From positions 124,001-188,000 of the forward strand of contig JAUSND010000002.1 of the NCBI GenBank assembly GCA_030646295.1: 64,000 nt of DNA. The letters run 5' to 3'. Below the pieces are notes generated by a model that saw only the letters and a list, made by a program, of their open reading frames with translations, was not told the origin of the DNA and did not search any database. Positions 887 to 45,005 of the stretch are shown in pieces. The DNA comes from Moraxellaceae bacterium (GTDB taxonomy: Bacteria > Pseudomonadota > Gammaproteobacteria > Pseudomonadales > Moraxellaceae). Both the position numbers and the translations under genes were made by a program. The first letter of the stretch is position 1, and every line of letters starts with the position of its first letter.

Positions 887-1672
887 ATGAGCCAGTTGAT
901 CAAGACCCCCGACGATATTGAAGGCATGCGCGTAGCCGGCCGCCTGGCCGCGGAAGTGCTCGACATGATCGGGCCTTACGTAAAGCCCGGGGTCAGCACA
1001 GGCGAACTTGACCGGATCTGCCATGACTATATCGTCAACGTACAGAAGGCCATCCCGGCACCCCTGAACTACAAGGGCTTCCCCAAGAGCATCTGCACCT
1101 CGGTCAACCATGTGGTCTGCCACGGCATTCCCAGCGAGACCAAGATCCTCAAGGAAGGCGACATCGTCAATATCGACATCACCGTGATCAAGAACGGCTA
1201 CTTTGGCGACACCAGCAAGATGTATGTGGCCGGCAAGGCATCCATCCTGGCCGAACGCCTGATCCGCGTCACCCAGGAGTGCCTGTACAAGTCACTGGCC
1301 GTGGTGAAGCCGGGCTGTCGCCTCGGCGACATTGGTCACGCCATCCAGAAGCACGCTGAAGCCAACCGTTTCTCCGTCGTTCGCGACTTTTGTGGCCATG
1401 GTATCGGCAAGGTTTTCCACGAAGACCCCCAGATCCTGCACTATGGCCAGCCTGGCACAGGCATGGAACTGCAAGCCGGCATGACGTTCACGATCGAACC
1501 CATGATCAACGCCGGCAGCTATCATACAAAGGTGCTTCCGGACGGCTGGACAGCTGTCACCAAGGATCACAAGCTCTCGGCACAATGGGAGCACACACTG
1601 CTGGTGACACCGACCGGCGTGGAAGTACTGACCGCCCGTAGCGAAGAAGACCTCAGCTTTCTTGGGGCCTGA
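887..1672 (+). CDS. map: Methionine aminopeptidase, type I
   Basis: This enzyme removes the initiator methionine from nascent proteins in the cytoplasm. The 261-residue product has the five metal ligands at the same positions as the E. coli enzyme: D97, D108, H171 (in GHGIG), E204 (in FTIEPM) and E235 (in QWEHT), plus H79 in VCHG. It is divergent from rpsB and lies directly upstream of glnD, the usual pseudomonad order. There is no recognisable terminator before glnD, so the two are probably cotranscribed. Confidence 0.97.
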   Translation: MSQLIKTPDDIEGMRVAGRLAAEVLDMIGPYVKPGVSTGELDRICHDYIVNVQKAIPAPLNYKGFPKSICTSVNHVVCHGIPSETKILKEGDIVNIDITVIKNGYFGDTSKMYVAGKASILAERLIRVTQECLYKSLAVVKPGCRLGDIGHAIQKHAEANRFSVVRDFCGHGIGKVFHEDPQILHYGQPGTGMELQAGMTFTIEPMINAGSYHTKVLPDGWTAVTKDHKLSAQWEHTLLVTPTGVEVLTARSEEDLSFLGA

Positions 1673-18937: not shown

Positions 18938-18999
18938 GAGGGGCTACCACAGAGAGTGTCGCAAAGGCGCGGATTCTACCTGAGTCGGGGGCCCGCCCC

Positions 19000-19031
19000 A
19001 AAGAAAACGGGGCCAAAGCCCCGTTTTCTTT
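19000..19031 (-). terminator. Terminator between mucD and lepA
   Basis: Perfect 14-bp stem AAAGAAAACGGGGC / GCCCCGTTTTCTTT with a 4-nt loop. On the minus strand it lies just past the mucD stop and ends in TTTTCTTT. It should separate mucD from lepA. Confidence 0.75.
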
Positions 19032-19038
19032 TGTTCAC

Positions 19039-20451
19039 TTACTTTTTCCCGCCCTTGGGCGCCGGTTGGGCGGCCTCCAGGCGCAAGGGCAGAATCATCG
19101 GCTGACCGCGCCGGCTCACCGACATGGGGACAGCCTTGCCGGCCGGCAGGGCTTTTGCCGTCTCGACGAACTGCTGCACGGTGGCCACCGGCTTGCGGTT
19201 GAGTGCCACGATGACATCACCAGGGCGCAGGCCTGCATCGGCACCAGCCCCTTCCACCACCTGCAGGACCACCACGCCCCCTTCAAGCTTGAGCTGGGCC
19301 TTTTCCTGCGGGTTAAGGTCGCGGATGGAGATGCCCATGCGATTGATGTCCGGCTTGTCCGACCGGGCCTTGGCTGCCGCCACATCCTCGTCTTCCGGTA
19401 GGGAGGCCACTTCAAAGCTCAGGGTTTGCGCCTTGCCTTCACGGATCACGTCAAGCGGCAGCTTGTCGCCCACCTTGGCACGACCAATCATCTGGGGCAG
19501 CTCGGAGGAAAGACCAATCTCGCGACCATTGAAGCGGGTAATGACATCCCCCTCCTTCAAGCCTGCCTTCTCGGCCGGCGTCCCCGGCAAGACCTTGGCC
19601 ACAAGGGCACCGGCCGGCTTGGGCAGACCATAGGCCTCGGCCAGATCACGGGTAATATCCTGTGTCACCACGCCCAGATAACCACGGGCCACGTGTCCGT
19701 CACTCTTCAACTGCGCCACCACGTCCATGGCCACATCAATCGGAATGGCAAACGACAGCCCCATGAAACCACCGGAGCGGCTGTAGATCTGGGAGTTGAT
19801 ACCGACAACCTCGCCATCCATGTTCAGCAGCGGACCTCCGGAATTGCCGGGGTTGATGGCGACATCGGTCTGGATGAAGGGCACGTAGGACTCATTCGGC
19901 AGGGACCGCGACTTGGCACTGACAATGCCGGCCGTCACGGAGTAGTCAAAACCGAACGGGGAACCGATGGCCATTACCCACTCGCCCACCTTCAGTTTTT
20001 CCGGGTCACCGATCTTCATGGCAGGCAGGTCCGTTGCCTCGATCTTGAGCAGGGCCACGTCAGAACGCTCATCCGTACCAATCACCTCGGCATCCAGCTC
20101 GCGACGGTCCGACAGGCGCACCGTCACCTTGTCGGCACCCTGCACCACATGGTTGTTGGTCAGTACATAACCGTCCCCGGAAATGATGAATCCCGAGCCG
20201 AACGACTGACGGTCCTTCGGGGCCGGGGCATAACCATATTCCTCGCCAAAGAAGCGCTTGAAGACCTCAGGCACCTCCTGCGGCACCTGGGTTCGCCCCT
20301 TGCTCTTTGACGAGGCACTGATATTGACCACGGCCTTGCTCTGGCCCTCGGCCAGCGGCGTGAAATCCGGCAGTGCCGCCTGCACGGACGGTGCCAACAG
20401 CACCGCGCCAACCATTGCAACCGACATTACCAACTGACGGCCCAGACGCAT
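19039..20451 (-). CDS. mucD: Do-like periplasmic serine protease (MucD/DegP)
   Basis: This is a periplasmic HtrA-type quality-control protease. The product has 470 residues with a signal peptide (MRLGRQLVMSVAMVGAVLLAPSVQA cut in two by a short n-region). The catalytic triad is H in LTNNHVV, D in ERSDVALLK and S in NPGNSGGPL. Two PDZ domains follow. Start is ATG 20451 behind AAGGAGG. Position beside lepA and divergent from nadB identifies it as MucD; unlike in Pseudomonas, no algU-mucA-mucB lies upstream. Confidence 0.93.
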   Translation of the reverse strand: MRLGRQLVMSVAMVGAVLLAPSVQAALPDFTPLAEGQSKAVVNISASSKSKGRTQVPQEVPEVFKRFFGEEYGYAPAPKDRQSFGSGFIISGDGYVLTNNHVVQGADKVTVRLSDRRELDAEVIGTDERSDVALLKIEATDLPAMKIGDPEKLKVGEWVMAIGSPFGFDYSVTAGIVSAKSRSLPNESYVPFIQTDVAINPGNSGGPLLNMDGEVVGINSQIYSRSGGFMGLSFAIPIDVAMDVVAQLKSDGHVARGYLGVVTQDITRDLAEAYGLPKPAGALVAKVLPGTPAEKAGLKEGDVITRFNGREIGLSSELPQMIGRAKVGDKLPLDVIREGKAQTLSFEVASLPEDEDVAAAKARSDKPDINRMGISIRDLNPQEKAQLKLEGGVVVLQVVEGAGADAGLRPGDVIVALNRKPVATVQQFVETAKALPAGKAVPMSVSRRGQPMILPLRLEAAQPAPKGGKK

Positions 20452-34391: not shown

Positions 34392-34468
34392 TGGTGCGCT
34401 GGGAGGGATTCGAACCCCCGACCACCTGGTTCGTAGCCAGGTACTCTATCCAACTGAGCTACCAGCGC
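34392..34468 (-). tRNA. tRNA-Arg (anticodon ACG)
   Basis: 77 nt with encoded CCA. Acceptor stem GCGCTGG / CCAGCGC; anticodon loop CTACGAA between CCTGG and CCAGG gives anticodon ACG, read as ICG for CGU/CGC/CGA. T-loop GGTTCGAATCC is standard. Confidence 0.97.
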
Positions 34469-34599: not shown

Positions 34600-34690
34600 T
34601 GGCGGAGAAGGGGGGATTCGAACCCCCGACACCCTTTTGAGGTGTACTCCCTTAGCAGGGGAGCGCCTTCGGCCACTCGGCCACCTCTCC
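34600..34690 (-). tRNA. tRNA-Ser (anticodon GCT)
   Basis: 91 nt with a long variable arm and encoded CCA. Acceptor stem GGAGAGG / CTTCTCC contains one G-U pair; anticodon stem-loop CTCCC-CTGCTAA-GGGAG gives GCT, reading AGC/AGU. Discriminator is G, as in serine tRNAs. Confidence 0.97.
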
Positions 34691-34804: not shown

Positions 34805-34849
34805 CGTGTAGGAAATTGACTATATCGGCCATGGTCAATTTCCTACACG
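34805..34849 (+). repeat. 16-bp perfect inverted repeat between tRNA-Ser and the sRNA candidate
   Basis: Arms CGTGTAGGAAATTGAC and its exact complement, separated by a 13-nt loop. There is no T tract, so it is not an ordinary terminator. It is a candidate operator or palindromic extragenic element upstream of the RNA at 34898-35016. Confidence 0.7.
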
Positions 34850-34867: not shown

Positions 34868-34897
34868 CAGACATCAAACCTGCAAAACCCGGATACT
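34868..34897 (+). promoter_or_regulatory. Possible promoter of the csrA-proximal sRNA candidate
   Basis: CAGACA (34868-34873), 18-bp spacer, GATACT (34892-34897). Both boxes match consensus at four of six positions. This weak, perhaps activator-dependent promoter would start transcription near 34904. Confidence 0.3.
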
Positions 34898-35016
34898 TCT
34901 CTCACGGCGCAGGGATGTGATCACGGATGGATCAGTAGCCGTCAGGATGGGTCAGATGGATCTGGCAATGCAAAACCGAGACGCTTTCAGGGAGAAACGT
35001 CTCGGTTTTCTTTTTT
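34898..35016 (+). ncRNA. Candidate CsrA-sequestering small RNA (RsmX/Y-like) beside csrA
   Basis: No protein frame is credible here. Within 34911-34993 there are six GGA triplets, most in hairpin loops: TGATC-ACGGATG-GATCA (34918-34934), CAGA-TGGA-TCTG (34953-34964), and TTTC-AGGGA-GAAA (34985-34997) at the tip of the terminator. An outer stem ACGGC/GCCGT (34904-34908 with 34938-34942) encloses the first. The terminator has a 12-bp stem AAAACCGAGACG / CGTCTCGGTTTT and a T-rich tail. Looped GGA on short stems is the hallmark of CsrB/RsmX/Y/Z decoys. It converges on csrA. The exact 5' end is uncertain. Confidence 0.6.
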
Positions 35017-35122: not shown

Positions 35123-35320
35123 TCAGTCGTCCATGTCGCCATGTTCGCCAGGGGTCTTCTCGCGCTGGATACGCTGATAGATCTCCTCACGGTGCACTGC
35201 CACTTCCTTGGGGGCATTTACCCCGATGCGCACCTGGTTACCCTTCACACCGAGCACGGTGACGGTTACGTCATCCCCGACCATGAGGGTTTCACCCACT
35301 CTGCGCGTCAGAATCAGCAT
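35123..35320 (-). CDS. csrA: Carbon storage regulator CsrA (RsmA)
   Basis: CsrA is a dimeric RNA-binding post-transcriptional regulator that binds ANGGA motifs in mRNA leaders and is titrated by decoy RNAs. The 65-residue product has [43 protein letters not shown] with the RNA-contacting VAVHREEI segment and R44-equivalent intact. The start at ATG 35320 has CAAGGAG upstream, itself a possible CsrA site for autoregulation. Order alaS-lysC-csrA-tRNA-Ser-tRNA-Arg is as in Pseudomonas. Confidence 0.97.
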
Positions 35321-35403
35321 TGTTTTCTCCTTGTTTCCTTGGGGGTGCCGGAAAACCGGCAATCTGAGACTTGGAAAGTATTGACCACACATCGCAGGAA
35401 AGC

Positions 35404-44865: not shown

Positions 44866-44999
44866 TAAAAAGGGGCGGAAACCGCCCCTCGTCTCAGATC
44901 TCTGGCTCCCTGCCTGACGACCCGCTACCTCCATGTGCCCCTGTTCCCTGGGCTGACCATCCTGGTCACTATCCTTTTCCCTGTCGCTGCCTTGCGACA
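44866..44999 (-). ncRNA. rsmZ: RsmZ-like CsrA-sequestering small RNA
   Basis: About 134 nt with no credible protein frame. Read on the minus strand, the RNA opens with TGTCGC-AAGGCA-GCGACA, a 6-bp 5' stem. Six GGA motifs follow at RNA positions 20, 26, 38, 53, 68 and 91. Two are presented in 5-nt loops on short stems: TGACC-AGGAT-GGTCA and GGC-AGGGA-GCC. It ends in the terminator GGGGCGG-TTT-CCGCCCC-TTTTT. This is the architecture of CsrB/RsmZ RNAs, which bind several CsrA dimers and relieve its repression. The place beside fdxA is where rsmZ lies in Pseudomonas. Confidence 0.8.
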
Positions 45000-45005
45000 A
45001 CTTGG

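Follow-up and report, generated by a model that had tools for sequence, protein, structure and literature searches.

The 64,000-nucleotide stretch of DNA analysed here as a whole, referred to below as the window, holds a short GGA-rich sequence between csrA and a tRNA-Ser gene, which raises the question of whether it encodes a small RNA that sequesters CsrA, and of what its position beside csrA may mean. The gene csrA (35123..35320, minus strand), recognised as an open reading frame, codes for a protein with L4 and R44, residues highlighted in a CsrA structure legend in the available part of one paper (PMC7652899). Its stop (35123) lies 106 nt from the end of the element. The upstream neighbour, divergent from the element, is tRNA-Ser(gct) (34600..34690, minus strand, Rfam/tRNA match), and a tRNA-Arg is found at 34392-34468. 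The element thus stands between csrA and tRNA-Ser and is convergent with csrA, as the initial annotation had placed it, and no plus-strand open reading frame of at least 60 aa runs across it. The order alaS-lysC-csrA-tRNASer-tRNAArg of this locus is that of Pseudomonas, as described in the accessible portion of a review in which the second gene is printed lysA (PMC7366521). In the csrA leader (~35321-35345, minus strand) there are two GGA motifs around the ribosome site (AAGGAAACAAGGAG), and from these CsrA may control its own translation.

The predicted CsrA-decoy sRNA is ~113 nt long and occupies 34903..35016 on the plus strand. It had initially been given as 34898-35016, of which the end stands and the start is slightly early, given that the 5' motif common to relatives begins at 34903. 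The six GGA motifs that had been claimed are all present, starting at 34913, 34925, 34929, 34945, 34958 and 34991 and spanning 81 nt, and three of them, including that at the tip of the terminator, are indeed in the loops of hairpins with stems of at least five pairs, the number rising to four when stems of at least four pairs are counted. When the 118-nt element was shuffled 2000 times with its dinucleotides kept, six GGA motifs were reached 302 times (mean count 4.1), which makes the count unexceptional for the composition. The looped count was matched in 115 of the 2000 shuffles for stems of at least three pairs, in 30 for at least four and in 7 for at least five. The looped arrangement is therefore a stronger signal than the number of motifs, which is weak when taken alone. 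This copy has a modest fold energy (z -1.5 to -2.0), and copies from the same genus fold better (G006, z -4.0; G003, -3.7; G002, -2.8). The main evidence for a decoy is comparative.

Three parts can be distinguished in the element, all on the plus strand. The 5' domain (34903..34949), supported by covariation and by the covariance model R2 described below, has a closing stem CGGC/GCCG and the hairpins GCA-GGGA-UGU and GAUC-ACGGAUG-GAUC, after which GGAUG follows. A second GGA hairpin, GUCAGA-UGGA-UCUGGC (34951..34966), is predicted from the fold and is partly kept in the genus, where 76% of the cells of this helix (helix 4) are paired across the rows. The closing stem with a T-rich tail reported initially was recovered as an intrinsic terminator (34972..35016) that folds with 12 + 4 pairs around one bulge and carries an AGGGA loop at its tip (TTTC-AGGGA-GAAA); it went unreported by a simple terminator scan, and the script that looks for terminators with GGA in the loop found no other in the 64-kb window. 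Upstream, GATACT (34892..34897, plus strand), 5 nt before the 5' motif, is a probable -10 hexamer, and hexamers placed alike in relatives, compared by eye, read CATTAT and CATAAT; GATACT is absent from the output of a simple promoter scan. Further upstream, CCTACA (34842..34847, plus strand), 55 nt before the 5' motif, corresponds to the right half-site of a GacA-type box of which the left half is degenerate. This half-site is overlapped by an 18-bp inverted repeat (34806..34848; fold z -6.0), of which a DNA search of the same genome gave no other copy. A less perfect version of the repeat is seen in G008.

Within the genus (g1, nine genomes including the one studied), csrA was found in five genomes and the element adjoins it in all five, while neither csrA nor the element was found in the other four, which are 59-86% complete. 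The four other copies were matched at the DNA level with E values from 3e-69 to 6e-17, and no DNA match outside the genus fell below E 0.08. The five copies align over their full length. The stem of the first GGA hairpin varies with its pairs and loop kept (GAUC/GAUC, AACCA/UGGUU, GACCA/UGGUC), and the terminator of G006 has exchanged a G-C for a C-G pair. Comparison of the csrA/tRNA-Ser interval in relatives, which had been proposed as a check, thus gave looped GGA motifs kept with compensatory stem changes in every genus genome in which csrA was found. Measured on these five rows the covariation is modest: 84 of 500 shuffles have as many double-change pairs (three), and 23 of 500 reach the score.

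As far as Rfam is concerned the description of the element as unannotated holds, no family there matching it. At gathering scores the 64-kb window contains two tRNAs and a t44 RNA and nothing else, the last (RF00127) at 679-773 on the minus strand. At the element there was no match of CsrB/Rsm type even at E values up to 10, and it lies below the gathering cut-offs of PrrB_RsmZ (RF00166), RsmY (RF00195), CsrB (RF00018) and CsrC (RF00084). Nor did any sponge family reach cut-off when the whole window, the surrounding region or chosen relatives were searched. Sub-threshold scores were obtained for PrrB_RsmZ in L035 (24.1 bits) and L255 (21.9 bits) and for CsrC in L143 (18.5 bits), and were excluded as proof. 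The RF00166 and RF00195 matches elsewhere in the genome were rejected as sponges; all are below cut-off, control genomes give such matches too, and none of the 8 inspected among 33 such places had more than five GGA motifs in its central 220 nt.

Two covariance models of the element itself were used. The model R1, built from the genus alone and run on 58 genomes, gave matches at E<=1 in 11 of them, the genus included. It found copies unlinked to csrA in G015 and G019, three in each, with best E values of 2.4e-5 and 4.4e-5, and on reading these are GGA-rich RNAs with terminators. Several other R1 matches were discarded: at least one of the 11, that in G038, is probably coding sequence, one at 18998-19092 of the window resembles an ordinary terminator that follows a coding frame, and three elsewhere in the genome studied (C20, C27 and C8) were put down to chance, the first overlapping a 374-codon frame and the others being judged by eye. 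The model R2 covers the 47 positions of the 5' domain, was trained on ten rows from g1, g5, g8 and g12 and was used at E<=0.05. Genomes of the family with a match to the 5' domain numbered 36 of 119, from 7 of 16 genera (five genomes in g1, two in g5, one in g8, four in g12, four in g10, 19 in g15 and one in g4), and g10, g15 and g4 are matched without having contributed a training sequence. The g4 match is weak (E 0.009) and lies on a contig other than that of csrA. In the genome studied R2 matches only the csrA-side element, with a score of 55.0 bits that has to be read knowing that the window supplied one of the training rows.

An alignment of 26 distinct rows of the 5' domain, fitted to the model, gave a covariation score of 0.250; shuffling gave 0.112 and sliding no more than 0.048. 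None of 500 shuffles equalled the alignment in this score, in the number of paired cells or in that of double-change cells (27), and two further measures fell within the shuffles, namely the four double-change pairs (reached by 179 of 500) and the six further pair types (484 of 500).

The genus g15 is Acinetobacter, with one R2 match in each of 19 genomes. One of these, G130, shows ~90% identity across 3 kb with four records named Acinetobacter baumannii, which identifies the family as Moraxellaceae. In A. baumannii the coordinates of the homologue place it between the exodeoxyribonuclease III gene, itself next to pyrE, and the arsenate reductase gene; in G130 it shares a contig with csrA at a distance of 2.7 Mb. 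Plasmid searches with the window element and with a g12 copy gave no match. An Acinetobacter copy matches two records named Acinetobacter phage MD-2021a, both of which carry xthA. The chromosomal locus of this homologue is met in Acinetobacter records of the plasmid and phage collections (CP040042, NZ_CP077849, NZ_CP064203, NZ_CP104448, CAKLQF020000012 and CAKLQH020000008), and three of those from the plasmid collection are of chromosome size. In two genera the decoy family is duplicated, G019 having two copies ~580 bp apart and G015 four R2 matches; the loci of the duplicate copies, on the minus strand, are L183 (1501-1661 and 2081-2242), L182, L188 and L195. An unlinked candidate in g7 (L185, ~1430-1646, plus strand) has a TGTAAG-N6-CTTACA box, GGA hairpins and an R1 score of 23.7 bits.

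The half-site upstream of the element recurs at a fixed distance. Among 30 copies surveyed, consisting of 29 of the 40 R2 places and the g5 copy in L041, a half-site C[CTG][TG]ACA lies upstream, ending 54-55 nt from the 5' motif, in 28 (5/5 in g1, 3/3 in g5, 1/1 in g8, 5/5 in g12, 4/4 in g10 and 10/12 in g15). A full box of the form TGTARGN6CYTACA, the GacA box consensus, stands upstream of the csrA-side element in 2/2 copies of g4, 1/1 of g13 and 3/4 of g5. In the genus studied the right half of the box is good and the left is not, and no full GacA-type box was found in the genome. The genome encodes both CsrA, in the window, and GacA, the latter 61% identical to E. coli UvrY and followed by uvrC, and a relative of UvrY is found in all nine genomes of the genus, as a partial one in G008. 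A hybrid kinase with a match to PF09984 was considered as GacS and set aside, the match being below the family cut-off.

The initial annotation called the element a second sponge, which proved right because an rsmZ-like RNA adjoins fdxA in the same window. This GGA-rich candidate (~44867-45000, minus strand) is convergent to fdxA and lies behind mutS, mutS-fdxA being the rsmZ locus of Pseudomonas, and has the hairpin GACC-AGGAU-GGUC and a terminator. A reading with only one sponge in the genome was rejected because of it. The scan that revealed it allows no bulge and does not list the csrA-side element. It had no Rfam match at cut-off (CsrC scoring a sub-threshold 18.8 bits, E 0.0014), and the R1 and R2 searches of the genome gave no match there. 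GGA-rich sequence is also present beside fdxA in G003, G002 and G008, and the G006 stretch taken for this comparison yielded no fdxA. An alignment of the fdxA-side elements was poor and was left unused.

Taken together, the comparisons establish a conserved RNA element, structured by prediction, with GGA loops, a terminator and the half-site, in a genome that has both CsrA and GacA. The interpretation as a CsrA decoy is supported by the looped GGA motifs kept with compensatory changes, by the 5' domain in other genera, by the half-site at a fixed distance and by gacA, and we give a probability of about 0.88 to the element being a GacA-activated, CsrA-sequestering sRNA of the CsrB or RsmX/Y/Z kind. 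Phosphorylated GacA would bind the half-site box ~55 nt upstream and switch the sRNA on, two or three CsrA dimers would then be bound through the GGA loops, and the mRNAs under CsrA control would be freed, the sRNA presumably acting together with the rsmZ-like RNA beside fdxA. Against this interpretation stand the absence of an Rfam match and of a full GacA box in this genome, a GGA count within chance and the modest covariation in the genus. The same DNA could be read on the minus strand as the terminator or 3' region of the csrA transcript, with the GGA motifs incidental, given that the stem is symmetric, so that R1 scores the minus strand too (25.4 bits), and that TTTT follows the stem on that strand as well. 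However, conservation extends well past the terminator to the plus-strand 5' domain, the -10 hexamer and the half-site, homologues lie away from csrA in other genera, and the longer T run is that of the plus strand, which leaves this explanation highly improbable. An sRNA of the trans-acting, base-pairing (Hfq) type would fit the size and the terminator, and CsrA also binds some base-pairing sRNAs that have at least two GGA motifs, according to the accessible part of PMC7652899; yet conservation across genera concerns the GGA loops together with the stems presenting them, and no conserved unpaired seed was seen there, so that an RNA of this type with GGA motifs present by chance is scarcely credible.

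A survey of 51 loci of the family, made by script and by reading by eye, found GGA-rich elements beside csrA, in the same place and direction, in g1 (5/5), g4 (2/2), g5 (4/4), g6 (3/3, where the interval of the MAG LL7.bin26 is that of G059 and may come from the same genome) and g13 (1/1). None was recognised in g2, g3, g8-g12, g14, g15 and g16, each represented by one to six genomes, and g7 stands outside the count, with no csrA found by script in L157 and a frame that does not resemble CsrA in L158. For g4, g6 and g13 the assignments rest on GGA clusters, boxes and terminators rather than on R2; homology across the five linked genera is not established, since R2 misses the csrA-side elements in both g4 and g6 and gives low scores at those of g13 (13.0 bits), L145 (14.2 bits) and L041 (22.7 bits). 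The script test for a terminator with a GGA loop is unspecific: it gives weak matches in L156, L151, L160 and L174, from genera without the element, and a misplaced one in L144, matches 2 of 92 non-family loci, and misses L036, L143, L064, L038 and L145. A LysC tree was made from 31 rows (6 of 37 loci being dropped where LysC was not found), and in it the 13 element-bearing rows are scattered among deep branches of the family and need four changes. A single origin of the csrA-linked element with losses is possible, because the well-supported branches force only one change.

A functional role for the position, in which decoy output and csrA expression would be coupled by converging transcription or by a 3' overlap with the csrA mRNA, would draw on the recurrence of the convergent arrangement in five genera spread over this tree. 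It looks unlikely, as 106 nt and a strong terminator separate the end of the element from the csrA stop, homologues in g8, g10, g12 and g15 lie away from csrA, and no csrA-side element was recognised in either g2 or g3, although the tree places both with linked genera. The direct interference with csrA transcription raised in the initial annotation is not supported. The adjacency to csrA is most likely explained by the age of this location in the family and not by any special mechanism. In a broader, rather doubtful scenario, csrA and the decoy would have formed one cis-linked convergent module in the ancestor of the Moraxellaceae, with shared 3' ends or converging transcription balancing CsrA against the decoy; the module would have been broken up in the Acinetobacter branch, the decoy being moved and, in some genera, duplicated.

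In Pseudomonas, RsmX, RsmY and RsmZ are RNAs of ~110-150 nt with serial looped GGA motifs and an intrinsic terminator, and the element is like them in all three respects. An upstream palindrome that could be a GacA site precedes rsmX, rsmY and rsmZ (PMC2375449). The element is unlike these RNAs in that neither RF00166 nor RF00195 reaches cut-off anywhere in its genome, in its place beside csrA and in the half box found in its genus. CsrB and CsrC of enterobacteria carry CAGGAUG-like repeats in loops and antagonise CsrA (PMC7652899, in part), and share with the element the looped GGA repeats and the antagonism of CsrA, which for the element is predicted. They differ from it in having 22 and 14 GGA motifs, respectively (PMC11882849, in part), compared with six in the element, which has no Rfam match. 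The rsmZ-like RNA beside fdxA resembles the element in its GGA hairpin, its terminator and its convergence with the neighbouring gene, and differs in the lack of an R1 or R2 match. Searches of the open-access literature, for sponges beside csrA and for sponges of Acinetobacter, turned up no described instance of a sponge next to csrA, in line with the initial annotation.

In Acinetobacter, GacA and CsrA matter for virulence, growth on amino acids and carbon use (PMC12070743 and PMC12455638, in the parts available). A 2025 paper on A. baylyi invokes, in its available part, noncoding RNAs that link GacA and CsrA and names none, and its text is without 'srna', 'rsm' or 'csrb'. The 2020 review lists RsmX, RsmY and RsmZ for A. 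baumannii after a prediction by Kulkarni et al. 2006, with no csrA-adjacent copy mentioned in its accessible portion (PMC7366521). The Acinetobacter homologue is a concrete candidate for the missing link between GacA and CsrA, besides the csrA-linked form in related genera, and with the decoy family this link becomes open to direct test, while Rfam could gain a family that it lacks. As judged from sequence comparison, the element resembles known decoy RNAs, matches no Rfam family and has relatives in Acinetobacter; the A. baumannii RsmX, RsmY and RsmZ belong to the same functional class and are possibly the same genes as these homologues.
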